Positions 1 through 11,079 of a stretch of DNA of 11,079 nucleotides are shown in pieces. The notes under the pieces are model-generated. The model was not told the DNA's origin. It saw nothing but the letters and a program-made list of their open reading frames with translations, and did not search any database. The translations under genes and the position numbers were made by a program. The DNA comes from Actinomycetota bacterium. Its GTDB lineage: Bacteria; Actinomycetota; Acidimicrobiia; Acidimicrobiales; Ilumatobacteraceae. The stretch is from NCBI GenBank assembly GCA_009703975.1, contig WLFB01000021.1, positions 1 to 11,079 on the forward strand, in the 5' to 3' direction. Positions within the stretch are counted from its first letter, which is position 1. Each line of letters begins with the position of its first letter.

Positions 1-372
1 CAGATATTGCGTTCTGGGGCAATATCGATAATTGAACTTGAAGAGATCGGCAAAATCAAGATCGCTCAGTCTGATGGCATTTCTCGAGCTTCGGGAATGC
101 TCGAAAAGCATTATGCACCAAACTGCCAGGTTGAACTCGTAGATAGTTCGCAACAGGCTCTGCAACGTTTTGATGAGATTTCTGATCAGGGATTGACGGC
201 TGAAATCATTGATTTTCAAGATGATTTAGAAATGTATGCGAAGCAACTTTATGCACGATTGCGTCAAGCCGACGAGCGAAAAATTCATACGGTTCTGGCT
301 GTTATGCCCAGCAAAGGTGGCTTGGGTGATGCGATTCGAGACCGGCTGATCAAGGCCGCTGCATCGAATTAG
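1..372 (+). CDS. sua5: L-threonylcarbamoyladenylate synthase (Sua5/YwlC type), C-terminal part
   Basis: Partial gene: the reading frame is open at the left edge and 123 residues plus a TAG stop are visible, against roughly 320 or more for full Sua5 proteins. The family makes threonylcarbamoyl-AMP from threonine, bicarbonate and ATP, the first step of the tRNA t6A37 modification. The visible part begins with ILRSGAIS, the end of the catalytic YrdC-like domain. It continues with a linker carrying SGMLEKHYAPN (residues 31-41), which matches the conserved G-M-x-x-x-H-Y-A-P motif joining it to the C-terminal Sua5 domain. The end, LAVMPSKGGLGDAIRDRL (about residues 99-116), matches the usual Sua5 C terminus. 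A TTG at position 7 is not a plausible start because it lies inside the conserved ILRxGAI motif. The catalytic core lies outside the window. Identification is confident from motif order. Confidence 0.88.
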   Translation, partial: QILRSGAISIIELEEIGKIKIAQSDGISRASGMLEKHYAPNCQVELVDSSQQALQRFDEISDQGLTAEIIDFQDDLEMYAKQLYARLRQADERKIHTVLAVMPSKGGLGDAIRDRLIKAAASN

Positions 373-504
373 GGCTTGTATTTCGTTTTGAGTCATTTGT
401 TATAACTTTCGATAGTTGCCAAAGTTCATGGGGTTCAATACCCTTAGAAGTTCCTAACTAATGGCCAGCATCCCGCTGTCCTACTCCTAGGGGGAGAAAA
501 ATAA
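373..504 (+). promoter_or_regulatory. Leader/promoter region of the substrate-binding protein gene
   Basis: This 132-nt gap should hold the promoter of the downstream lipoprotein gene. The best sigma70-like match I can find is TTGAGT (388-393), 17 nt, GATAGT (411-416), four of six bases matching in each box, so it is only a weak candidate. A small hairpin is possible at 463-481 (GGCCAGC/GCTGTCC with one mismatch, loop ATCCC). The Shine-Dalgarno is strong: GGGGGAG at 490-496, 8 nt before the ATG at 505. A CTCC at 484-487 could pair with the GGAG of that site. I recognise no known riboswitch class. Confidence 0.35.
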
Positions 505-1857
505 ATGAAGAAAACTACAGCGAAACGCTTCAGCGCGCTTGTTGTTGGTCTCAGCCTTTTGGCTGCGGCTTGCGGCGGCTCCGATGCAGCAACAGAAGAC
601 ACAACAGCAACCGCTGAGACTGCAGCACCTGCTGCATCAGGTGGGGAGTTAGCTGGAATGAAAGGTACAACTCCACTTGTTGAGTTGACTCCAGAGTTCA
701 AAGATGCAGTCAATGCATTTTGGACAGGCAAAGGCAACGAAGCACTTGTTGACTTCAACTACACAGCAGAATCATTTGACGCTGTAATGTTGATCGCACT
801 TGCAGCAGAAGCCGCAGGAACAGATGGCAGCGCACTCGCTGACCAACTTGTTGCTGTTTCAAAAGATGGTACTAAGTGCACAGCAGCCACATGGGCTGAT
901 TGTCTTGCAACAATCAAAGCGAAGGGCGACGTCGACTTTGACGGTTTCTCTGGTCCAAACACATTGAATGGTAACGGCGAGCCACTTGAGGCTTCGTACG
1001 GCATCCTTCAATTCGGTGCAGACAATCGTCTTGATAGCACTCTTACTACATATCAACTTGCAAATGCTCCAGAATCTGCAGTATTGCCACTTTCAAAGAC
1101 TGAAGTTACTCGTAAGGGTAATGGAGTTCTTAAAATCGGTGGACTTCTTCCAGAAACTGGCAACCTCGCATTCCTTGGCGCTCCAATGATCGCTGGTGTT
1201 GAGTACGCAATTGATTACCTAAACAAGGCCGGCGGCGTTCTTGGCAAGCCAGTTGAGTACAGCGCAGGAGATTCCGGCGACACTTCAACTGACACAGCCA
1301 GCGTGACTGTTGATCGATTGCTCGCAGAAGGTGCAGACGCCATTATTGGTGCAGCATCATCTGGTGTATCGCTCACAGTTATCGACAAGATCACTGCAGC
1401 AGGTGTAATTCAGTTCAGCCCAGCGAACACTTCGCCGAAGTTGACTTCATACGCCGACAAAGGTCTCTTCTTCCGTAACGCACCACCGGATGACCTCCAA
1501 GGTGCAGTACTCGCAGAAGTAATCGTCGCTGACGGAGCACAGTCTGTTTACATCTTGGCGCTTGACGATGCTTACGGCACCGGACTTGCAACAGTTGTAG
1601 AAGAAGTTCTTACAGCAGCTGGTGTAAAAGTATTGGGCAAGAAAATCTACGATCCAAAGGCAACAACATTTGATGCCGAAGTCGGAGAAGTTGTTGCTGC
1701 TAACCCAGACGCAATCGTCTTGATTACATTCGATGAGGGCTCACGTATTCTCCGCACAATGGTGGAGAACGGCGTTGGACCAACAGCGAAGAAGGTCTAT
1801 GGCGTTGACGGAAACATTGGTAACGCACTCGGCGAGAACTTTGACGCTGGTAAGTAA
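505..1857 (+). CDS. livK: ABC transporter substrate-binding lipoprotein, branched-chain amino acid type, apparently circularly permuted
   Basis: 450-residue exported lipoprotein, the solute receptor of a HAAT-type importer (Peripla_BP_6). Residues 1-22 form a lipoprotein signal (KK, hydrophobic core, LLAAA) before lipidated Cys23, then a low-complexity Ala/Thr tether to about 46. The fold segments are out of order. Residues 48-185 (GMKGTTPLVELTPEF, SFDAVMLIALAAEAAGTDG, DGTKC...DC with a likely C125-C133 disulfide, SYGILQFGADNRL) match the C-terminal part of LivK proteins. After a 21-residue linker (186-206), VLKIGGLLPETGNLAFLG (208-225), AGGVLGKPV, IIGAASSGVSLTVIDKITAAG, FSPANTSPK and YDPKATTFDAEV match the N-terminal and middle parts. 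The protein then stops at VYGVDGNIGNALGENFDAGK, exactly where the canonical protein would run into ELAGMKG. Strong SD; ATG start is clear. Codon use looks alike in both halves. The ligand is unproven; amino acids are inferred from family and neighbours. Confidence 0.85.
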   Translation: MKKTTAKRFSALVVGLSLLAAACGGSDAATEDTTATAETAAPAASGGELAGMKGTTPLVELTPEFKDAVNAFWTGKGNEALVDFNYTAESFDAVMLIALAAEAAGTDGSALADQLVAVSKDGTKCTAATWADCLATIKAKGDVDFDGFSGPNTLNGNGEPLEASYGILQFGADNRLDSTLTTYQLANAPESAVLPLSKTEVTRKGNGVLKIGGLLPETGNLAFLGAPMIAGVEYAIDYLNKAGGVLGKPVEYSAGDSGDTSTDTASVTVDRLLAEGADAIIGAASSGVSLTVIDKITAAGVIQFSPANTSPKLTSYADKGLFFRNAPPDDLQGAVLAEVIVADGAQSVYILALDDAYGTGLATVVEEVLTAAGVKVLGKKIYDPKATTFDAEVGEVVAANPDAIVLITFDEGSRILRTMVENGVGPTAKKVYGVDGNIGNALGENFDAGK

Positions 1858-1883
1858 TCAATAATTCCAAAGATTAAATGTTC

Positions 1884-1912
1884 AGGCCCCGGGCGAAAGC
1901 CCGGGGCCTTTT
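1884..1912 (+). terminator. Strong intrinsic terminator after the binding-protein gene
   Basis: A perfect 11-bp GC-rich stem (AGGCCCCGGGC at 1884-1894 with GCCCGGGGCCT at 1899-1909) is capped by a GAAA tetraloop and followed by TTTT (1909-1912). It lies 27 nt after the stop codon. It also separates the convergent livF end. No comparable T-run follows the stem on the minus strand, so it should act mainly in the plus direction. Confidence 0.93.
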
Positions 1913-1963
1913 CATTTGTACAAGAATTATCAATTTTCTAGCAACCTCAAAAGGTTGAAGATT

Positions 1964-2695
1964 TCAGCCGCCAGTTGATTTGGCGAGTGTGCCGAGATAC
2001 AACTTGATTACGTTCGGGTCTGTCAAAAGATCTTTGCCGGTCCCCGTGTAGGCGTTCTTACCTTGGTCTAAAACGTAGGCGCGATTCGAGACTTGCAAAC
2101 ATCTGCGAGCATTCTGCTCAACCATCAATATCGCGATGCCTTCAGCATTGATCTTCTTACACTGAATAAACACTTCATCTTGTAGCACTGGTGATAATCC
2201 TGCAGATGGTTCATCAAGTAACAACAGTTTTGGCTCCATCATCAGTGCCCGGCCCATAGCGACCATCTGACGCTCTCCGCCTGAGAGCGAACCAGCCTTT
2301 ACCAATGCGCGTTCAAGTAACCGAGGGAAAAGTGTCGAAACATATTCAAATCGATTCTTAAAAACTGATGGTTTAAGAAAACAACCCATCTCAAGGTTTT
2401 CAGTGACTGTAAGACTTGGGAATACATTTCGATTTTGCGGCACATAGCCAACGCCGCGCTCAACTAATTCGTGTGCTTTGAAACCTGTGATGTTTAATTC
2501 GCCTAAGTTGATTTCTCCACCACGAACTGAACATTCACCTAAAATCGCTTTAAGTACAGTCGACTTGCCGGCACCATTTGGTCCGATGACTCCAACGAAT
2601 TCACCTTGATCTACGGTGATGTTGCAACCATTTAAGATATTTACTTCAGGGATGTACCCGGCAATTAGATCTTTTACATCGAGAACCGAACTCAT
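1964..2695 (-). CDS. livF: Branched-chain amino acid-type ABC transporter ATP-binding protein LivF
   Basis: 243-residue cytoplasmic ATPase, one of the two nucleotide-binding subunits of the HAAT importer. All ABC motifs are intact: Walker A GPNGAGKST (38-46), Q-loop Gln87 (YVPQNRNVF, a LivF hallmark), signature LSGGERQ (137-143), Walker B LLLLDEP (157-163) and SAGLSP after it. The H-loop position reads VEQNA (193-197) with Gln instead of His, which is normal for LivF proteins and not a defect. Length is typical. The ATG at 2695 overlaps the livG stop by 4 nt (ATGA), indicating translational coupling; it is the last gene of the run. Downstream there is only a short 6-bp hairpin (CAACCT/AGGTTG, 1942-1957) without a clear T-tract, so the end of the transcript is not obvious. 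Confidence 0.95.
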   Translation of the reverse strand: MSSVLDVKDLIAGYIPEVNILNGCNITVDQGEFVGVIGPNGAGKSTVLKAILGECSVRGGEINLGELNITGFKAHELVERGVGYVPQNRNVFPSLTVTENLEMGCFLKPSVFKNRFEYVSTLFPRLLERALVKAGSLSGGERQMVAMGRALMMEPKLLLLDEPSAGLSPVLQDEVFIQCKKINAEGIAILMVEQNARRCLQVSNRAYVLDQGKNAYTGTGKDLLTDPNVIKLYLGTLAKSTGG

Positions 2696-3570
2696 ATTTG
2701 TACCTCATCCAAGAGAGATGACCCTTGGTGTAGGCCAAGATATGCCTCGACAACTCTTTCGTTATTTGAAATTTGACTTGGCGTACCTTCAGCGATGACT
2801 ACTCCTTCTGCCATCACTACAACCCAGTCTGCAACGTCGTTGACCATATCCATATCGTGCTCGACGAAAAGTACAGTCATTCCATCATCGCGTAATCCCC
2901 TGATGTGTTCATTCAAGCTTTGTTTCAGTGCTGGGTTAACTCCAGCCATTGGCTCATCTAGCATCACGAGTTTTGGCTCCGTCATCAGCGCTCGTGCCAT
3001 CTCTAGCAATTTACGTTGACCACCAGAAAGTGTGCCGGCGTATTCATTGCGCATGTGATCCATTTTGAAACGTTTCAACAGAGCATCAGCACGTTCTTCG
3101 ATTTTGGCTTCTTGAGATTTCCATAAATATGGCAATAAACCATTCCACCACTTCTCGCCCACTTGGTGCATAGCGCCCAGTTTCATATTTTCAATGACTG
3201 ACATTTTTGTCAAACTTTTAGTCAATTGAAATGTCCGGACCATTCCCATACTGGCAGTTTGATGTGCTGCAACGCGCGACATGTTGTGCCCGTCAAAACG
3301 CCACTCACCGACATCGGGTTTATCAAAACCAGAAAGAAGATTGAATAACGTTGTCTTGCCAGCTCCGTTAGGGCCGATCAATGCTGTAATTGAACCTCGT
3401 TGTACTTCAATATGTGAAACATCTACAGCAACTACTCCGCCGAAGTGGCGTCGAACACCGTCTGCTACCAAAATTGGATCGGGCTTAGAAACACCCGGTG
3501 TTGAATCAATTGTCGCTAACGCCGCACGAACTGTTGTTGCGAGTTCACCGTATTTTCGTTCAGCGTCCAT
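2692..3570 (-). CDS. livG: Branched-chain amino acid-type ABC transporter ATP-binding protein LivG
   Basis: 292-residue cytoplasmic ATPase, partner of LivF. Motifs: Walker A GPNGAGKT (66-73), Q-loop Gln115 in RTFQLT (the LivG signature), LSGGQ (181-185), Walker B LVMLDEP (201-207), AGVNP, and His238 in VEHDMD. The helical insert containing WWNGLLPYLW (141-150) is typical of LivG. About 30 residues precede the usual start of the ATPase domain, so it is slightly long at the N terminus. I chose the ATG at 3570, which overlaps livM by 11 nt. An in-frame TTG at 3621 would add 17 residues but would overlap livM by 62 nt and is unlikely. No clear Shine-Dalgarno precedes either, so coupling to livM translation is likely. 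The stop overlaps the livF start. Confidence 0.94.
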   Translation of the reverse strand: MDAERKYGELATTVRAALATIDSTPGVSKPDPILVADGVRRHFGGVVAVDVSHIEVQRGSITALIGPNGAGKTTLFNLLSGFDKPDVGEWRFDGHNMSRVAAHQTASMGMVRTFQLTKSLTKMSVIENMKLGAMHQVGEKWWNGLLPYLWKSQEAKIEERADALLKRFKMDHMRNEYAGTLSGGQRKLLEMARALMTEPKLVMLDEPMAGVNPALKQSLNEHIRGLRDDGMTVLFVEHDMDMVNDVADWVVVMAEGVVIAEGTPSQISNNERVVEAYLGLHQGSSLLDEVQI

Positions 3571-4564
3571 CGAGCGCCATTTCTTGTCGGTTACCGAAAA
3601 GCCCTTGTGGCCTGAAAACAATTAACAGCATCAATCCGATGCCGACGAACATGTAGTTGACAGCGCCGACCTGATTGCTCTCGATAATTGTTACACCGCT
3701 AATTCGTAATGGTCCGTTGCGAGTCATCTCACGCAAGACATTGTCGGAGAAGACAAATAACAACCAAAACAACATCGAGCCAACGACTGACCCTGCGACC
3801 TTTGCCAGACCACCCAAGACGAGTGCAGTGAGAATATAGAACGTCACCATTCGGCTGTAATTATCTGGTTGAACAGATCCACGATCGAGCGCCAAAATCA
3901 TTCCTGCGAACATTCCGATAACGCCACCAATTACAAGCGCTTGCATCTTGTATGCGTAGACGTTCTTTCCGAGGCTTCGCACCGCATCTTCGTCTTCGCG
4001 AATACCTTTAACAACTCTGCCCCAGGGGCTGCGCATCAACTGCCAAGTGAACAGTGAGAAGATCCCGACCAATCCCCAGCCAATAAGGATTGTGTAAAGC
4101 GAATATCCCGTATACGTAAAAGGCCCAAATCCATATTCTTTACCTGGTTCAAAAGGACTGAGATCGCGATACTGGCTACTGAAACTGCTGATGCCCTCGG
4201 TGCCACCAAAAACTTTTCTGAATTTGACCGAGCGCACAAATAGTCGCACAATCTCTGCGGTTGCAATCGTGACAATTGCTAGATAATCGGCTCGCAGCCG
4301 CAAAGTTGGAATACCAACAATTAGCGAAAGAATTATTACAAAAAATATTCCAAGTGGAATACCCCACCACAGACCTACACCAAAGTATTGCGCCGTCATA
4401 CCTAAGCCGTATGAACCACAGGCCATAAATGCGGCCTGACCAAAGTTGAGCATGCCCGTATAACCGAAATGAATATTTAGACCCAACGCAGCAATCGCAA
4501 AATAGATTGCGTCAACTCCGATTGATGCTCGAATCGTATTTTCGATGATCTTTATTAAGTCCAC
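3560..4564 (-). CDS. livM: Branched-chain amino acid-type ABC transporter permease LivM
   Basis: Integral membrane permease, second of the two membrane subunits of the importer. The family hallmark GLNIHFGYTGMLNFGQAAF (residues 28-46) is intact. So are LRLRADYLAIVTIATAEIVR (88-107) and the cytoplasmic coupling (EAA-type) loop WGRVVKGIREDEDAVRSLGK (181-200), followed by several further hydrophobic segments and the closing RPQGLFG. A polar segment at about 111-150 should be an external loop. Start choice: a GTG at 4564 gives 334 residues beginning MDLIKIIENT and lies just after the livH stop, with AAAGGG 9 nt upstream. A TTG at 4591 (343 residues, overlapping livH by 26 nt, AAGG 5 nt upstream) is the alternative. 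I prefer GTG from similarity in length to LivM proteins; this is not certain. Confidence 0.93.
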   Translation of the reverse strand: MDLIKIIENTIRASIGVDAIYFAIAALGLNIHFGYTGMLNFGQAAFMACGSYGLGMTAQYFGVGLWWGIPLGIFFVIILSLIVGIPTLRLRADYLAIVTIATAEIVRLFVRSVKFRKVFGGTEGISSFSSQYRDLSPFEPGKEYGFGPFTYTGYSLYTILIGWGLVGIFSLFTWQLMRSPWGRVVKGIREDEDAVRSLGKNVYAYKMQALVIGGVIGMFAGMILALDRGSVQPDNYSRMVTFYILTALVLGGLAKVAGSVVGSMLFWLLFVFSDNVLREMTRNGPLRISGVTIIESNQVGAVNYMFVGIGLMLLIVFRPQGLFGNRQEMALDGR

Positions 4565-4565
4565 G

Positions 4566-5897
4566 TCAACCAACCCTTTGACTTCTGCCAAAAATACCTT
4601 GCGGGCGAACGATCAGCACCAAAATCAGAATAAACAAGGCTGGTGCAACCTTCAACTCACTTGGGATGAACAGTGCGGACATTTCAACAAAAATACCGAT
4701 GAAAAAACCACCTACGAGCGCGCCATATGCAGAGCCGAGGCCCCCGAGTGTGATGCCGGCAAACATTAAGAAAACCAAATCTGAACCCATTGAAAAACTG
4801 ACCTGTTCATCTAAGCCTCGAAAAATACCGCCAGTTGCAGCCAACGCGCCACCGGCAAACCAAACTATGCGGATTACTTTTTGTGTATCAATACCCGTTG
4901 CGGACGCAAGTTGCACGTTGTCACTAACAGCACGAATTGCTTTACCCAGCCTTGATCTTTGCAATGAAAATGCTACCGAAAGCAAAATAATTATCCCAAG
5001 AATTGCAGTTGTCAAATCTCTTGGCGTAATACCGATTGGACCAATCTCAAGATTGACTTGCTTTGAGAAACTAGTCAATTGTTTTGTGCGCCCACCGAAT
5101 AGAAATAGAAACAAATTGATCAGCATCAGTGATAGACCAAGCGACACGACCAATTGCGAATTAGAACCGATACCGCGTTTTGTCAAACGGGCAAAAATAC
5201 CCCAGTTGATAAGCAGCCCGAAACATCCCCCCAACAAAATCACAAGCGGTCCAGAAATCAGAATCGGAATATTTAGATGGACGTTAAAGAAAAACGCCAA
5301 GAGTGCACCAAACGTAACCATCTCGCCGTGAGCGAAATTCGTTACACCCGTGGTGCCGATAACTAGTGAGAGTCCAACCGAACACATTGCGATAATGATT
5401 CCGAGACGAATACCGTCAGTTAATCTTTGCAGATAGCGCTCTATTTCGGTTGAGCCAGAAACGCCACTGTCACCCGTAAAAAAAGTGACTCGTTTTGTGT
5501 TTGTCGTAAACAAAACTTGGTCGACCTTGACTTGCGCTTTAGCGGCGTCAATGAGCGTGAGACCGTTAGGCAGTGAAGTTGTGTCGATGTCAATTAAATA
5601 GTTGTCACGTGTCGGTACTGCAACTTTGCAGAGTCCATCTGCACCAGTTATGCCTTCGCCGATCAAAGTGCCGTCAGATGTTGTGACTTTGATAGATGCC
5701 CCGGCAACTGGTGTTCGCTCTGGCACATCGTTAACCAAAACCTGGTTTTGCACACTGGCGATAATAAAAAATTCGCCATCATCTGCTGCGCTTACCGAAC
5801 TTGATGCGAAACCAAGACCCGCAACAGTTGAGCAGATCACGGCTAATAAAACTTTGAGCCAGATGTGACCAACGCCAGGACCAGTTTGCTTCAACAT
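4566..5897 (-). CDS. livH: Branched-chain amino acid-type ABC transporter permease LivH with an N-terminal secreted domain
   Basis: 443 residues, about 150 longer than a usual LivH (about 290-300). The permease occupies about 156-443: hallmark GTTGVTNFAHGEMVTFGALL (181-200), EAA-type coupling loop SRLGKAIRAVSDNVQLASATG (315-335, one residue beyond), GGLGSAYGALVGG (385-397) and the closing RPQGIFG. Ahead of it lies a signal-peptide-like segment (about 14-38: KVLLAVICSTVAGLGF then SSVSAAD). Next comes an approximately 100-residue polar region that reads as beta-strands, with PVAGASIKVTTSDGTLIGEG (63-82) and TGADGLCKVAVP (84-95). That pattern matches carboxypeptidase-regulatory-like/Ig-like sandwich domains. 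It would sit outside the membrane, next to the binding protein. ATG at 5897; the SD is weak (AGAG). The stop sits 1 nt from the preferred livM GTG, and ctaA ends 23 nt upstream. Confidence 0.92.
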   Translation of the reverse strand: MLKQTGPGVGHIWLKVLLAVICSTVAGLGFASSSVSAADDGEFFIIASVQNQVLVNDVPERTPVAGASIKVTTSDGTLIGEGITGADGLCKVAVPTRDNYLIDIDTTSLPNGLTLIDAAKAQVKVDQVLFTTNTKRVTFFTGDSGVSGSTEIERYLQRLTDGIRLGIIIAMCSVGLSLVIGTTGVTNFAHGEMVTFGALLAFFFNVHLNIPILISGPLVILLGGCFGLLINWGIFARLTKRGIGSNSQLVVSLGLSLMLINLFLFLFGGRTKQLTSFSKQVNLEIGPIGITPRDLTTAILGIIILLSVAFSLQRSRLGKAIRAVSDNVQLASATGIDTQKVIRIVWFAGGALAATGGIFRGLDEQVSFSMGSDLVFLMFAGITLGGLGSAYGALVGGFFIGIFVEMSALFIPSELKVAPALFILILVLIVRPQGIFGRSQRVG

Positions 5898-5920
5898 CGT
5901 GGCTCTAATCTAAGCACAAT

Positions 5921-6826
5921 TTACGAAATCTTTGGAAGTTTTGAGTTCCAATACAAATCGAGCGCCCCAAGCCACACAGCCACGGATAGAGCGACATGAA
6001 CAGCGACCAGCAACACTGGTAGCCCAGAAAAGTATTGAACGTAACCGATTAACCCTTGCAAGAAGCCAATGGCGAGAAATCGCTCAAGTGGATGAGCCAG
6101 AATGCGCCAAGATACCTGATCTCTTCGGCTCATCAAAAACAGGACCAATGCCGTAATGAGGCAGATGATCACTGTGATGCTGTGAATCTTTGCGGCTGTG
6201 TTTATCGCCAAGCGGATTCGAATCGCGTTTTCGTCACCTGCATGTGGTCCGGAGCCAGTTACCACCGTGCCTGTGACGACTGCCGAGCCGGTCAGAAACA
6301 AGACGATACGCACCAGCAACAGAATTTTCGAATTAGATATTTCTGGTTCACGACGCGGCAAAACAGTTTCTTCGGTTCGAAATATTCTTGCATGCTGAAG
6401 CAACATGTAGGCATTGCTCATCAGCACCATACTCACCAAAAAGTGCGCAATATTTGAGAACGGATTTAACCCAGTCAGCACAACTAGGCCCCCGAGTAAA
6501 ACTTGGGCAAGAACGCCGATGACGAGTCCGATAGACATGGCGACTAGATCGCGACGCTTTGGTCGTAATTTAACCGAAAGCAAAACCGCGAGAATTACGC
6601 TCGCCGCAACAACACCCGTGAACAGACGATTGACTTGCTCAATAGCTGCGTGTGAGTTCGACACATCAACAAACTTTGATTCACTACAACGTGGCCAATC
6701 CGCACAGCCCAACCCTGAGCCTGTTAGTCGTACCAACGATCCGGTGATGATTATCAAATAGAGTGAAGCGAATGCAGTCTGCGCAACTCGAAGAAAGCCT
6801 TTTGGTGTGATACTTAACTTACGCAT
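5921..6826 (-). CDS. ctaA: Haem A synthase (CtaA/COX15 family)
   Basis: 301-residue polytopic membrane protein that oxidises haem O to haem A for aa3-type cytochrome oxidase. The diagnostic GSLVRLTGSGLGCADWPRC (29-47) is present, with Cys41 and Cys47 corresponding to the redox Cys pair of the first external loop. The usual E-x-x-H-R of the first half reads E63-Q-V-N66-R67; I recall Asn here as common in actinobacterial CtaA, so it is probably not a defect. Other haem-ligand histidines are at 128 (NIAHFLVSM), 215 (KIHSITV) and 277 (VAVHVAL). GSGPHAGD (191-198) is also characteristic. About eight hydrophobic segments, as expected. ATG at 6826. It is the promoter-proximal gene of the run into livHMGF, although function does not link it to amino acid import. 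Divergent from the TetR gene across 42 nt. Confidence 0.93.
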   Translation of the reverse strand: MRKLSITPKGFLRVAQTAFASLYLIIITGSLVRLTGSGLGCADWPRCSESKFVDVSNSHAAIEQVNRLFTGVVAASVILAVLLSVKLRPKRRDLVAMSIGLVIGVLAQVLLGGLVVLTGLNPFSNIAHFLVSMVLMSNAYMLLQHARIFRTEETVLPRREPEISNSKILLLVRIVLFLTGSAVVTGTVVTGSGPHAGDENAIRIRLAINTAAKIHSITVIICLITALVLFLMSRRDQVSWRILAHPLERFLAIGFLQGLIGYVQYFSGLPVLLVAVHVALSVAVWLGALDLYWNSKLPKIS

Positions 6827-6852
6827 GACTAGTCATTTTCTATCAGTAAAAT
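6825..6852. promoter_or_regulatory. Shared ctaA/tetR control region with a perfect palindrome
   Basis: ATGACTAGTCAT (6825-6836) is a perfect 12-bp palindrome that overlaps the ctaA start codon. A plausible plus-strand sigma70 promoter for the TetR gene uses ATGACT (6825-6830, TGAC matching -35) and TAAAAT (6847-6852, -10) with a 16-bp spacer, placing the palindrome over its -35 box. Autoregulation by the adjacent TetR protein, with possible control of ctaA, is an inference from position and symmetry. The minus-strand promoter of ctaA is not clear. Confidence 0.4.
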
Positions 6853-6868
6853 CATCTGAGTTTCGGCC

Positions 6869-7960
6869 ATGCCCCAAGCAAAGTATCGTGCGCAAGAAGT
6901 GAAAAAAGAAACAGTTGAGCAACGTCGCATTGAGATTCTTGAGGCTACCTGCGACGTAATCATTGAACGAGGTTTTGCCGGTACGCGTGTGGCTGATGTC
7001 GCAAAGCGACTCGGAGTTTCAAACAGCCTTATTCATTATCACTTCGCATCTAAAGAAGAATTGTTGGCGGCAGCTTTTGAACATTATGCAAATAAAGACC
7101 TCGCCGATATGCAACGCGACAGCGCATCGGCGCCCACGGCAGTAGCAAAATTGTGGCGACTGATTGAGAGTTACGTGCCTGAAGGTAGTGACGACGTCGA
7201 GTGGATGTTATGGATTGATGCTTGGGGCGAAGCATTAAGGAATCCAAAAATGAAACCGATTAGTCAAGAGCTCGACGCGCAATCAATCGCTGTATTCGAA
7301 AAAGTTCTTCGAGCAGGTAACGAATCAGGCGAGTTTCACTGTGTTCACCCTCGCGAATCTGCGACTCGTATCTCAGGCTTGATTGACGGATTGGCTGTGC
7401 AATATGCCGCTCATGAAGGGGTACTCAAACGCAAAGAATTTATTCGGCTGATGAGGCAACTTGCGGCGGCAGAGACCGGCTTATCACCAGACGACATTCG
7501 TGACTCACGGAGATCACCAAAATCACTAAATGGCACAACTAAACAAAATGACGAAGATGCTCCCCGACCTGCTTCTCTTGCCACTGACTTTGATTTGCGC
7601 CAGTTAATAACGATGTATGCCGACGCGTTAAGTCGTTCAGAGATTGACTCGGTAATGCGATATTTCACTGACGACGCTGTGATCAGTGTCAATAACGCTG
7701 ATGCATTGAATACTCCCGAGCAGATTCGTCAAAGTTTTATTGAGCAGTTTTCGGCCAATGAATTGATTATTGAAGTTCCACTAGTCATGGCATTTTTTGC
7801 AGACGAAGGCAATGGCACGGCATACGGAAACCTGACAATTGAGCGGCGTCAAAGCAAAGCAGGCGCAAAGCCGGTAATCGACTTGGTCCGCGGAGTCGAT
7901 ACTTTTCGCCGTACATCAAATGGCTGGCGATGTAATCAGCGCCAGCGAACCACTATCTAA
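6869..7960 (+). CDS. TetR-family regulator with C-terminal SnoaL/NTF2-like domain
   Basis: 363 residues, against about 200 for ordinary TetR proteins. Residues 21-67 are a typical TetR DNA-binding region: RRIEILEATCDVIIERGFAG, then TRVADVAKRLGVSNSLIHYH and FASKEELL. Residues about 80-200 are helical and fit a TetR ligand-binding and dimerisation domain of the BetI/TetR_C_6 kind (WMLWIDAWGEALRNP; FIRLMRQLAA). A polar linker (204-238) leads to residues 239-358, which read as a SnoaL-like alpha+beta barrel: LRQLITMYADALSRSEID, SVMRYFTDDAVISV, NTPEQIRQSF, GNLTIERR, DTFRRTSNGWRC. That fold usually binds small molecules. The ligand is unknown. The gene is divergent from ctaA and 17 nt upstream of a methyltransferase gene, so the two are probably co-transcribed. 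ATG at 6869 has only a weak SD; no better upstream start was seen. Confidence 0.85.
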   Translation: MPQAKYRAQEVKKETVEQRRIEILEATCDVIIERGFAGTRVADVAKRLGVSNSLIHYHFASKEELLAAAFEHYANKDLADMQRDSASAPTAVAKLWRLIESYVPEGSDDVEWMLWIDAWGEALRNPKMKPISQELDAQSIAVFEKVLRAGNESGEFHCVHPRESATRISGLIDGLAVQYAAHEGVLKRKEFIRLMRQLAAAETGLSPDDIRDSRRSPKSLNGTTKQNDEDAPRPASLATDFDLRQLITMYADALSRSEIDSVMRYFTDDAVISVNNADALNTPEQIRQSFIEQFSANELIIEVPLVMAFFADEGNGTAYGNLTIERRQSKAGAKPVIDLVRGVDTFRRTSNGWRCNQRQRTTI

Positions 7961-7977
7961 GAGACTCAGAGAACTCG

Positions 7978-9162
7978 ATGCCAATTGAATTTGAAGAAGC
8001 AACTGCCGAGGCTTTTGCCCTGATCAACAACTTAGAAACGTTCGTCAGAGCGGTTCTTTCGGGCCGTCGCAGAAATATGATGCCCGAAGCTGAAAAAATT
8101 GAAATCAGGCCGGTCAAACTTAAAGATGAGATTAAATTACAGATGATTGAACTCTCTGGAACGAGTTCTAAAACAGTAAACCTTGATGTTGGGTCAGAGA
8201 TAGTCAAGAAATTAATGAACTCGGGTTTCGCCAACATTTTGATCGAATCTGTTTCGCAATCAATGACAATCAGATTTACAAAGAAAGGCGATGCCCAGGT
8301 TTTCGTTGAGCAGTCAAAAAAGTCGCAATCGCTAGATCACGATAAGCACAAGTCGAGATTGCTTGACCCTAGCGATTCGTTTCTTCGCGAAGTTGGTATC
8401 TCTGATGCACAAGGACGCATCAAGCCGACAAAGCAAGACAAGTATCTTCAGGTTGAAGAGTTTCTTCGAATTCTTGCTCCGACGCTAAAGAATGCGATCG
8501 AATCTGGTCATATATCAGTCGACGATGACAAGCCAATTTCGATCGTAGATCATGGATGTGGCAATGCATATTTGACATTTGCGGCGCATCAGTACTTGAT
8601 AAGCACGCATCACAAAATCAAAGTAATTGGAATTGATTTGCGTGAGCAATCGAGAATTCGAAACATTGCGATCGCAAGTCGGCTCGAAATTTCTGATTCG
8701 ATCGAGTTTCGAGCTGAGAAAATTTCAGAGACCGATATTCCGGCTGCAGATATAACCATTGCACTGCACGCTTGTGACACGGCAACCGACGATGCAATTG
8801 CATGGGCGATCAACAACAACTCAAAGTTATTGCTGATCGCACCGTGTTGTCATCATGATCTTCAGACACAAATACGAGAAGTACCTGAGCCATGGTCAAC
8901 AATCACCAAACACGGAATCCTTAAGGAGCGCCTTGGCGACATGTTGACAGACGCTCTTAGGGCCCAAATTTTGCGCTTGATGGGTTACCGCACTGAGATT
9001 ATTGAATTCGTTGGCGACGAGCACACACCGCGAAACCTGATGATTCGGGCGGTTAAGACGGGTGCTCGCCCAGAGCAAAATGAGTTCGAGCGCTACCAAG
9101 AAATGCTCAAACTCTGGAAGATCGTGCCAAAACTCAGTGAATTGGTCCAAATACCGCTCTAA
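7978..9162 (+). CDS. Class I SAM-dependent methyltransferase, Methyltransf_32-like
   Basis: 394-residue predicted cytoplasmic methyltransferase of unknown substrate. The N-terminal part (about 1-150) has RPVKLKDEIKLQMIEL (44-59) and RLLDPSDSFLREVGISDAQG (127-146), which I associate with a conserved family of bacterial proteins of this architecture. KQDKYLQVEEFLRILAP (152-168) leads into the Rossmann core: SAM motif I ISIVDHGCGNAYLTFAA (187-203), an acidic strand end GIDL (218-221), ALHACDTATDDAI (262-274) and a distinctive APCCHH (288-293). The ALHACD and PCCHH motifs resemble the Methyltransf_32 group (METTL25/GSTCD-like in eukaryotes). Some relatives act on RNA, but nothing here fixes the substrate. 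ATG at 7978 with a weak purine-rich SD, 17 nt after the TetR stop, suggests an operon with the regulator. Confidence 0.83.
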   Translation: MPIEFEEATAEAFALINNLETFVRAVLSGRRRNMMPEAEKIEIRPVKLKDEIKLQMIELSGTSSKTVNLDVGSEIVKKLMNSGFANILIESVSQSMTIRFTKKGDAQVFVEQSKKSQSLDHDKHKSRLLDPSDSFLREVGISDAQGRIKPTKQDKYLQVEEFLRILAPTLKNAIESGHISVDDDKPISIVDHGCGNAYLTFAAHQYLISTHHKIKVIGIDLREQSRIRNIAIASRLEISDSIEFRAEKISETDIPAADITIALHACDTATDDAIAWAINNNSKLLLIAPCCHHDLQTQIREVPEPWSTITKHGILKERLGDMLTDALRAQILRLMGYRTEIIEFVGDEHTPRNLMIRAVKTGARPEQNEFERYQEMLKLWKIVPKLSELVQIPL

Positions 9163-9300
9163 TTGTGTTCATATAAACACTTTAAGTAACTAAAAAAGTC
9201 CTTGATTTAGGCACTTTATACTCGGTTGTCTTGTTTCATCACTCTGAGTGGTGGAATACACATTTTAAGTGAGAAATATCTCAAGTTTATTTATCTAGTG
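9163..9300. promoter_or_regulatory. Upstream region of the M23 peptidase gene
   Basis: AT-rich 138-nt stretch between the methyltransferase stop and the structured leader. A weak hairpin GTGTT/AACAC (9165-9180) followed by only three T could be a poor terminator. An 11-bp interrupted palindrome CACTCTGAGTG (9239-9249 by register of CATCACTCTGAGTG) and a TGAGA/TCTCA inverted repeat (9270-9283) are operator-like. TATACT at 9217-9222 resembles a -10 box but has no convincing -35 at the right distance. The promoter of the peptidase gene should lie here but I cannot place it. Confidence 0.3.
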
Positions 9301-9347
9301 CCGATCCCTTAATCGGATCTCGAAAGAGGTCCGATCTCACAAGGGAG
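9301..9347 (+). promoter_or_regulatory. Nested hairpin leader that can mask the Shine-Dalgarno
   Basis: Inner stem: ATCGGATCTC (9312-9321) pairs with GAGGTCCGAT (9326-9335), 10 bp with one G-T wobble, closed by a GAAA tetraloop. Outer stem: TCCCTT (9305-9310) pairs perfectly with AAGGGA (9341-9346), which is the core of the Shine-Dalgarno AAGGGAG sitting 5 nt before the ATG at 9353. An alternative hairpin CCGAT (9301-9305)/ATCGG (9312-9316), loop CCCTTA, would break both stems. The pairings are direct observations; a regulatory switch is inference. It does not match known riboswitch consensus that I can recall. Confidence 0.45.
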
Positions 9348-9352
9348 CACAT

Positions 9353-10666
9353 ATGTTACGAATTAATGGTCGGATCCTTAAATCCGTTATCTCGGTTGTT
9401 GCTGGGTCAATTCTCAGCCTTGCCATGTCAACTACGGCTGTCAATGCAGCTACAGAGTCCTTGCCAGTTTTAGGCGACTCTGGTGCTTCAGTAATTCAAC
9501 TTCAAGAGGCACTAATTTCTCGTGGGTTCACTCTTAAGGGTGGCGCTGATGGCGTCTTCTCAACCACGACTCGAAACACACTCAAGAGTTTTCAACGTAT
9601 CGTCGGATTCAAAGCCACTGGAACTGTTGATGAGCGAACCGCAAAGTTTCTCGGATTAGTAGCGCCGAAACAACTTGACTCAAAGGCTTTGCCAGTTGCA
9701 GGAACAAAGAGTGAAGAAGTGTGGTCACTTCAGCAGGCTCTTGCAAATAATGGCGTTCCGGTTAAGGGTGGCGCCGATGGCGTATTTGGTTTAGCTACCA
9801 AAATTGCGATTGCGAAATTTCAATCAGCTAAATCTCTGCCAATCACACAAATTTTAGACACGGCTACTGCTGCAGCACTCGGATTAATTTCAGAAGCGGC
9901 CGTAGAAAAAACCGTAGTGTCTACTGGAGCAGTAAAGGCTGCGGCCCAACCAGTGGTTGTTAGTGCAACGGTTACAAGTAACGAGATGTTAACGATTGAC
10001 ACTCTTCCAACACGTGGTCAGAGAAGTGACGCGGTTCGTCTCGTGCAAGAAAAATTGATCGCAAATTCGATCGAAGTTAAAGGTGGCGTTGATGCAATTT
10101 TCGGTCTTGCAACTTCAATTGCAATCGCTTCATTTCAAACGAGTCGTGGCCTCAAAGTAACTTCGGCGATTGATCTCCCTACTGCTATTGCGCTTGGTGT
10201 TCTACCTGATATGGCTACTCTCGGAATTCCACAAATCAGTGTTTTCCCATCGCAAGGTCGTTGCAGTTTTGCTGATACTTGGCAACAATCTCGACCTGGT
10301 GGACGCTTTCACGAAGGTGTTGACATTATGGGTGTTAAAGGTCTAGCTCTGTATGCGGTTGTTGACGGCACGATTACGAAAATGTATGGAGCTGATGCTG
10401 TATTGAGTGGAAATGCACTTCGATTGACTGCAAGTGATGGCACATACTTTTTCTACGCACATCTAGATTCATTCGCACCAGGAATCGCAGTTGGTTCAGT
10501 TGTCAAAGCTGGTCAGATTATCGGCTACATGGGTTCAACTGGTTTTGCTGGTTCGCCTCACTTGCACTTTGAAGTTCATCCAAAGGGCGGAGCGCCAGTT
10601 AGTCCGTACCCAATTGTAAAAGCTGTCGACGCTTGTGACGTTACGGATGTGCTCCCACAACCGTAA
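9353..10666 (+). CDS. Secreted M23 metallopeptidase with three peptidoglycan-binding domains
   Basis: 437-residue exported cell-wall hydrolase, predicted to cut peptide cross-links of peptidoglycan. Residues 1-32 form a signal peptide ending TTAVNA, with cleavage likely before Ala33. Three PG_binding_1-type repeats follow at about 37-102, 112-178 and 217-283, each with V-x-x-L-Q-x-x-L, a KGG(A/V)D(G/A)(V/I)F turn and a closing FQ...GLxxT stretch. The catalytic domain spans about 317-411, with the zinc ligands of M23/LytM in place: His320 and Asp324 (HEGVDI), His370 (YAHLD), His403 and His405 (HLHFEVHP). Cys304 and Cys428 flank the domain and may form a disulfide. All catalytic residues are present, so it should be active rather than a degenerate divisome activator. 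Strong SD AAGGGAG 5 nt before ATG, but that SD can be buried in leader structure. A terminator follows at 10685. Confidence 0.93.
   Translation: MLRINGRILKSVISVVAGSILSLAMSTTAVNAATESLPVLGDSGASVIQLQEALISRGFTLKGGADGVFSTTTRNTLKSFQRIVGFKATGTVDERTAKFLGLVAPKQLDSKALPVAGTKSEEVWSLQQALANNGVPVKGGADGVFGLATKIAIAKFQSAKSLPITQILDTATAAALGLISEAAVEKTVVSTGAVKAAAQPVVVSATVTSNEMLTIDTLPTRGQRSDAVRLVQEKLIANSIEVKGGVDAIFGLATSIAIASFQTSRGLKVTSAIDLPTAIALGVLPDMATLGIPQISVFPSQGRCSFADTWQQSRPGGRFHEGVDIMGVKGLALYAVVDGTITKMYGADAVLSGNALRLTASDGTYFFYAHLDSFAPGIAVGSVVKAGQIIGYMGSTGFAGSPHLHFEVHPKGGAPVSPYPIVKAVDACDVTDVLPQP
9536..10098 (+). repeat. Triplicated KGG(A/V)D turn within the peptidoglycan-binding repeats
   Basis: The DNA for the central turn of the three domains is repeated at 9536-9555, 9764-9783 and 10079-10098. 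The first two 20-mers differ at one base (AAGGGTGGCGCTGATGGCGT versus ...GCCGATGG...); the third is more diverged. This is consistent with internal duplication of the domain, the first two copies being closest in this segment. Confidence 0.7.
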
Positions 10667-10684
10667 TAACAAGCTCGATTATCG

Positions 10685-10718
10685 GGTGGCGGAGAGGTGA
10701 GATCCTCCGCCACCTTTT
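10685..10718 (+). terminator. Intrinsic terminator after the M23 peptidase gene
   Basis: A 10-bp perfect stem GGTGGCGGAG (10685-10694)/CTCCGCCACC (10705-10714) with a 10-nt loop is followed by TTTT (10715-10718). It begins 18 nt after the stop and sits between convergent genes. The minus-strand side has no T-tract, so it is directional. Confidence 0.9.
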
Positions 10719-10731
10719 CATTGCTGCGTAT

Positions 10732-11079
10732 TTAGTTGGTTCGGTCTTCGCGAGGAATGTGCTCAAGATCGGAAAGTGGTGATAGTGCAAAAACATATCC
10801 ATCACCTATTTTTAACGCCTCTAGTCGAGTAACCGAAGCGTGACCTAGAACAAATCTCTCCCACTCCCACGGTGTCGGGGCAAGACCCAATAAATGACAA
10901 ATCACTGCACTGTTAGTTCCAGCGTGGGCGACAAAGGCGATTCGTTCGCCATGGTTGTCGATATGCCAAATTGGTAGTTCATGTTCAATTCTGTAAATAC
11001 CTCGGTCGCCAAGAAACTTTTCAGCTCCCGCATGTATCCGAGCGATAAAATCTTTTACCGACTCGCCACCCTCTAATCC
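10732..11079 (-). CDS. Histidine phosphatase (phosphoglycerate mutase-like), C-terminal part
   Basis: Read on the minus strand, the frame is open from the right edge to a TAA at 10732-10734, giving 115 residues with no start in the window. GLEGGESVKDFIARI (1-15) matches the conserved GGES-x-x-D-F segment of the histidine phosphatase superfamily. IAFVAHAGTNSAVI (47-60) carries the second catalytic histidine, His52, in the usual strand-then-loop setting. The rest, LLGLAPTPWEWERFVLGHAS and SRLEAL-like VTRLEALKIGDG, fits this superfamily's C terminus. The N-terminal R-H-G catalytic motif lies beyond the window. Substrate cannot be told from this half: sugar phosphates, nucleotides (cobalamin-type or adenosylcobalamin phosphatases) and general acid phosphatases share these motifs. 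Convergent with the M23 gene, 65 nt apart. Confidence 0.85.
   Translation of the reverse strand, partial: GLEGGESVKDFIARIHAGAEKFLGDRGIYRIEHELPIWHIDNHGERIAFVAHAGTNSAVICHLLGLAPTPWEWERFVLGHASVTRLEALKIGDGYVFALSPLSDLEHIPREDRTN

Follow-up and report, generated by a model that had tools for sequence, protein, structure and literature searches.

Can a substrate-binding protein of the LivK type have its two parts swapped and still serve its importer? This question is raised by a gene on an 11,079-nucleotide stretch of DNA (the window) from an Actinomycetota bacterium of the Ilumatobacteraceae (assembly GCA_009703975.1, contig WLFB01000021.1, positions 1 to 11,079), which corresponds to C124, one of the 257 contigs that make up a 1.49-Mb draft genome. 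The open frame, Pfam and homologues identify the gene (505–1857, + strand; 450 amino acids) as coding for a circularly permuted LivK-type binding lipoprotein. Its product starts with a signal peptide (residues 1–23, 505–573) whose lipobox LAAAC carries the lipidated Cys23, assigned by eye and recurring in relatives, and with a low-complexity tether (residues 24–45, 574–639); the predicted local distance difference test score (pLDDT) is below 50 for residues 1–39. Residues 46–187 (640–1065) then correspond to the C-terminal part of ordinary LivK proteins, as judged from matches to ANF_receptor and to the ordinary-order relative L086, and residues 208–450 (1126–1854) to the N-terminal part. Residues 188–207 (1066–1125) form a linker bridging the old ends; after it come all of the first N-lobe half and the greater part of the C-lobe.

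The swapped order is most readily appreciated from profile matches. In native order, Peripla_BP_6 (127.7 bits, cut-off 31.7) aligns residues 209–433 with profile positions 2–224 of 343. Residues 46–186 alone match positions 235–350 of 353 in ANF_receptor (E=8.7e-7) and, these being late positions, the C-terminal part of the profile stands first. The re-ordered string, 208–450 followed by 46–186, gives a single ANF_receptor stretch (positions 6–350), and its scores against three Pfam profiles are 134.6, 106.3 and 48.5 bits versus 127.7, 100.3 and 45.3 bits for the native protein. The same holds against a solved structure, Streptococcus LivJ (4gnr), which the native protein matches at 54.6 bits, mainly through residues 208–437, and the re-ordered protein at 70.5 bits over chain residues 8–324 with no break at the joint. 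By Pfam and 4gnr alike, the window receptor departs from the ordinary N-to-C order of LivK-type (HAAT) proteins. Another Peripla_BP_6 protein of the same genome has the ordinary order (profile positions 1–323).

Pairwise comparison gives the same picture. Searched separately against L086, the front piece falls on residues 391–524 (E=2e-40) and the rear piece on 149–387 (E=6e-95), bearing out the initial annotation, which had placed a C-terminal LivK segment before the N-terminal and middle one in a single frame. It had also proposed that the cut ends fit together, GENFDAGK continuing into GELAGMKG; L086 is indeed continuous here, reading GENFPGGELAGMKGT where the window has GENFDAGK-stop and GGELAGMKG. 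Against 78 relatives of canonical order the front piece scores 34.3–129 bits; none of 500 shuffled versions of it exceeds 29.3 bits. These relatives were sorted by order and admitted only if both pieces matched, so a swap in 78 of 78 does not count as a further test, and it is Pfam and the solved structures that attest the ordinary order independently.

Where the protein was opened can be read from alignment to the lobes of LIVBP. The cut falls at the second lobe-to-lobe crossing, near residue 241 of 3ipc, and the linker would add a fourth crossing, a reading that comes from this alignment rather than from superposition. The earlier claim of a linker bridging the old termini thus stands, with its limits moved from 186–206 to those given above; likewise the permutation holds, and the new termini, previously put in a surface loop of the second lobe, are relocated to the crossing. 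The structure model of the window protein has a two-lobe fold (mean pLDDT 88.9, predicted template modelling score (pTM) 0.85). Sequential structure alignment cannot by itself reveal permutation since only the rear part matches. Together, profiles, pairwise matches, relatives and the confident model support the window protein being a true circular permutant with a bridging linker, as far as sequence and prediction can tell.

The arrangement is common to many relatives. All 120 listed homologues (the best 120 of 7,971; at least 63% identical) have the permuted order, although one of them, P0002, is possibly the window protein itself. When an alignment of permuted proteins served as query, which favours permuted relatives, 78 of the 80 named loci retrieved contained a permuted open reading frame (ORF) and two (L174, L177) a canonical one. 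Cultured strains are among the 80: Desertimonas flava SYSU D60003 (L150) and strains of Blastococcus, Modestobacter, Geodermatophilus, Goekera and Trujillonella (L160–L172). Within the window's family, at least 35 of 101 genomes, its own included, have a match running through both halves in permuted order. The permuted receptors are a large family and the change occurred, it seems, more than once, so that the initial annotation seems to have underestimated the case.

Permuted proteins fall into types, which we named by gene order and cut. The window's type, PA, ends GNALGENFDAGK and starts GELxGMKG. In PG the cut lies about 22 residues earlier than in PA, with the strand containing YGxDGN in front; PG was found in Geodermatophilaceae strains and, by a class search, in 8 of 246 genomes. 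PC is cut nearly as PA is and is represented by G418 (protein P0242, recorded as Salsipaludibacter albus) and G617; it occurs in 2 of 35 genomes of its family, with nine more such proteins among the matches listed. M, represented by G274 and seen in 1 of 14 genomes of its family, is canonical save for its last strand, IDESLTVYKFAKI, which lies between tether and core; in G121, a genus mate, IDESLTVYKFAKI is at the end. The M protein is recorded on three contigs, the longest of 90 kb, all of which may derive from one sample. Linkers differ between the permuted groups. From the model of a PG-type protein (mean pLDDT 73.1, pTM 0.72, 11 sequences) we draw no conclusion.

A few relatives of the permuted receptor carry additional N-terminal parts. 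These include P0043 (548 amino acids) and P0095 (536 amino acids); in the latter a membrane-helix-like segment stands where the lipobox would be, and a zinc ribbon (PF13240, E=8.8e-7) is present. In an Acidimicrobiales draft genome, a 990-residue ORF (L158:1031-4000, +) joins an Hsp70-like domain (Pfam HSP70, residues 48–394, E=1.2e-37) to a permuted receptor through a proline-rich stretch and a segment that by eye resembles a membrane helix. A cytoplasmic chaperone-like ATPase coupled to an outside receptor would be unusual.

Trees of the core, built without the linker and the cut segment, place the permuted groups apart. Tree 1 comprised 80 of 82 thinned rows, two having been dropped, and tree 2 comprised 98 rows thinned from 175, after removal of 10 incomplete or odd rows. 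PA is one clade on both (support 99/97 and 100/98, respectively), while PC groups with canonical L086 (99/96 and 100/98) and M with canonical L090 (100/99 and 100/100). PG forms a single weak group on tree 1 (25/6) and occupies four places on tree 2; its subdivision was chosen after the tree was seen. The canonical label requires seven changes on tree 2, six of them forced by well supported branches. Approximately unbiased (AU) tests reject, on tree 1, a clade of PA and PC (p=1.3e-6) and of PA, PG and PC (p=7.6e-5) and, on tree 2, clades of all PG (p=1.2e-7), PA with PGab (p=3.2e-5), PC with PGab (p=3.1e-9) and PC with PGa (p=4.6e-5); on tree 2 PGc with PGgeo (p=0.50) and PGa with PGb (p=0.053) are not rejected. 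Since PA, PC and PGab are pairwise separate, the sequences are best fitted by at least three full permutations in two cut registers, plus the form in which only the last strand moved.

How such permutants could arise is suggested by fused and partly trimmed forms in the family. In P0128 (759 residues) a single lipobox precedes two canonical receptors in head-to-tail order, which are 97.8% identical over 322 residues. P0328 (567 residues, predicted start) begins inside a first copy and runs through a full second copy; it is one of 12 permuted proteins among 209 matches sorted by order, the other 197 being ordinary. Complete double proteins occur in a paralogous receptor, in G218 and G846 (2 of 34 genomes searched): these LivK-type lipoproteins, L302:1362-3950 (863 amino acids) and L303:3177-5861 (895 amino acids), come from two genomes of one genus and have similar copies, with two Pfam stretches in the 895-residue protein. 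The double proteins stem from draft assemblies, yet their copies differ and the paralogue is common to two genomes. Tandem-fused proteins are what circular permutation by duplication predicts, according to PMC3320104, and the in-frame doubles (P0128; L302, L303) therefore support permutation by duplication. The first-collected loci yielded no fused double receptor among 121 large matching ORFs, and none was found within this set on the branch to the window's own group; the doubles were recovered from protein matches and from an additional search. Hence the tandem duplication and trimming put forward earlier gain the in-frame doubles as support, but from other branches, and remain a probable route for the window group.

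The receptor gene stands at a conserved locus. Tail to tail with it lies a livF-type ATPase gene (1964–2695; ABC_tran, neighbourhood kept in relatives), followed by ORFs for a livG-type ATPase (2692–3621; ABC_tran and BCA_ABC_TP_C), a livM-type permease (3560–4591; BPD_transp_2) and a livH-type permease (4566–5897; BPD_transp_2 on residues 160–428), all on the minus strand. Across 40 stretches, livF-type genes are tail to tail with the receptor in 20 of 26 permuted and 12 of 14 canonical cases, often with sua5 on one side and ctaA beyond livH. Most of the eight stretches lacking livF-type neighbours are short or end nearby; receptors in L078, L079, L080 and L087 have no livFGMH in reach. Further listed loci have the same neighbours in 23 of 29 named and 8 of 10 other cases. 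Ordinary and permuted relatives at this shared locus are about 60% identical over the longer part, and within genus g5 the permuted form (L061) and the canonical form (L097) have the same neighbours. On a quick LivF+LivG tree of 57 rows, to which long-branch warnings apply, PA loci need two changes, which suggests that cassette and receptor mostly travel together.

The window's LivH carries an N-terminal extension of about 150 residues that has no Pfam match. Extensions of similar length, upper bounds taken from stop-to-stop ORFs, precede the LivH permease part in most stretches of both receptor kinds. Similarity to the window's extension is seen in 16 of 20 permuted versus 3 of 11 canonical stretches holding livH; relatedness alone could explain this difference, and a link between extension and permuted receptor is not established. 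In L079, two diverged permuted receptors (6686–8056 and 8060–10291; about 45% identical to the window's) lie in tandem between sua5 and ctaA, with no livFGMH in the fetched stretch. Elsewhere in the window, a TetR-type regulator is fused with a SnoaL-like domain (6869–7960, +), and three peptidoglycan-binding stretches precede an M23 peptidase domain (9353–10666, +).

The ligand-binding cleft appears to be retained. Cleft positions, including S285-S286, N308-T309, Y357, E411 and D435, are invariant over 47 permuted sequences and sit in motifs that align with solved LivJ relatives; with these residues kept, closure on a small ligand and its transfer to the permease should still occur. What changes is the anchor. 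Ordinary receptors are attached to their tether through the first strand of the N-lobe; in PA, PG, PC and M it leads instead to an element that aligns with the C-lobe. With the new ends at the second crossing, the lipid tether of the window receptor would enter the C-lobe side, which may alter how the tether presents the receptor to the permease, as the initial annotation had suggested.

Could the permuted order be an artefact, or have arisen only once? A chimeric or misassembled gene is conceivable in a contig from so fragmented a draft genome, but the same order in the 120 homologues and 78 named loci, independent assemblies and cultured strains among them, rules out an assembly artefact, and we give this explanation next to no weight. 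A single emergence of the permuted order, with several later reversions to the ordinary one or with loci passing between lineages, would accommodate the two forms at one place in g5, the near-unity of PA on the transporter tree, as expected from exchange of whole cassettes, and a possible clade of PA with the Geodermatophilaceae type (p=0.25). It has to contend with the AU rejections of PA+PC, PA+PGab, PC+PGab and all PG as clades, with linkers that differ between groups and with the seven label changes on tree 2; moreover, going back to the ordinary order would require a further permutation each time. We regard a single origin as improbable. Several observations nevertheless weigh against repeated permutation by duplication of an amino-acid receptor. 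Clades of PA with PG on tree 1 (p=0.077), and of PA with PGgeo and PGc (p=0.25) or with PGgeo (p=0.107) on tree 2, are not rejected and, with PA and the Geodermatophilaceae type as one clade, origins may number only three. The tandem fusions come from metagenome assemblies and from branches other than the window group's, and the second copy of P0128 is incomplete. No relics of the old arrangement were seen by eye beside the gene in three-frame translations of the flanks (window, G274 and G418; downstream only for G121, G515 and a Blastococcus). Finally, the curated models leave the ligand open: receptor and LivH both score under the cut-offs, and the window's LivH scores higher with the UrtB model than with the LivH one.

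These scores bear on what the receptor does. Among curated models the window receptor scores highest with that for branched-chain amino acids (65.6 bits, cut-off 477), and LivJ-type proteins are the solved structures it matches best; neither is decisive. It also has weak matches to urea models, and the LivH-type permease reaches 124.7 bits with UrtB (cut-off 250.3) and 93.4 bits with LivH (cut-off 379). That an ordinary importer receptor here binds urea, a short amide or another small compound rather than an amino acid is unlikely, though a serious alternative. Less likely by far is that permuted receptors became sensors or scaffolds and no longer serve the adjacent importer. The permuted genes of group g23 (L078, L079, L080), which have no livFGMH in the fetched stretch, and the Hsp70-like fusion in L158 would suit such a role. 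Against it, livFGMH-type genes adjoin the receptor in the window and in 20 of 26 permuted stretches, and the cleft is invariant.

In its sequence family (Peripla_BP_6, PF13458), two-lobe model fold, lipoprotein nature and livFGMH-type neighbours the window receptor resembles LivJ/LivK-type (HAAT) proteins; it differs in its swapped parts, its linker joining the old ends and its tether at the C-lobe side. As it is LivK-type by sequence and neighbourhood but fails the defining order, we call it a permuted variant. The initial annotation knew of no described permuted HAAT receptor, and we likewise saw no description of such a LivK-type receptor, of its recurrent permutation, of the shared locus or of the candidate intermediates among the papers listed from the open-licence PMC literature. 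A permuted type-I receptor of another family is known, however. According to PMC4990184, TpMglB-2 (Tp0684) of Treponema pallidum is a glucose-binding MglB relative and a circularly permuted type-I binding lipoprotein, proposed as a 'Type Ic / Cluster Bc' class, with its first three N-lobe strands transferred to the C-terminus and both termini within the N-lobe. Both proteins are naturally permuted type-I lipoproteins; TpMglB-2 has a fourth lobe crossing, and one is predicted for the window receptor from the alignment to LIVBP lobes. TpMglB-2 is cut in the N-lobe, whereas the permuted LivK-like receptors are opened either within the C-lobe or at the second crossing; the window receptor does not have the TpMglB-2 arrangement. 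Compared with the scheme reviewed in PMC3320104, the predicted tandem fusions occur here too, but permutation recurs in a receptor at one conserved locus and with different cut registers.

We infer with considerable confidence that the window gene encodes a functional lipid-tethered receptor of the adjacent LivHMGF-type importer, a true permutant that most likely arose via tandem duplication, in a family with at least three such events. Its ancestor would have been an ordinary gene at the same locus, which most likely underwent in-frame tandem duplication and then trimming at both ends. The linker would have joined the old ends, adding the fourth crossing, while new ends opened at the second crossing and left the lipid anchor on a flexible tether that now enters the C-lobe side. 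The receptor would fold, close on a small ligand, probably of the amino-acid class, and hand it over to LivHM. Across related actinobacterial receptors such permutation probably took place at least three times, in two cut registers, and once with movement of the last strand only. More tentatively, and as a proposal we hold at slightly less than even, tethered LivK-type receptors of Actinomycetota may be prone to recurrent permutation by duplication and trimming, which would have given between three and five full permutants as well as one form in which a single strand moved. The tether lies on a C-lobe element in each type, which suggests selection for anchoring by the lobe opposite the ancestral one; any advantage of C-lobe anchoring is putative.

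Circular permutants are usually encountered as single old events, remote from any relative of ordinary order. The present family allows several permutations to be compared, with ordinary relatives at the same locus and fusions that resemble the missing intermediate. Hence the origin of permutants, the preference for cutting one particular segment and the importance of where an importer's receptor is anchored all become open to test. For annotation, the consequence is that profile-based methods cover only about two-thirds of such permuted receptors. For these bacteria, the family offers a rare view of a protein rewired with its shape kept, a similar swap having apparently occurred several times in related lineages.
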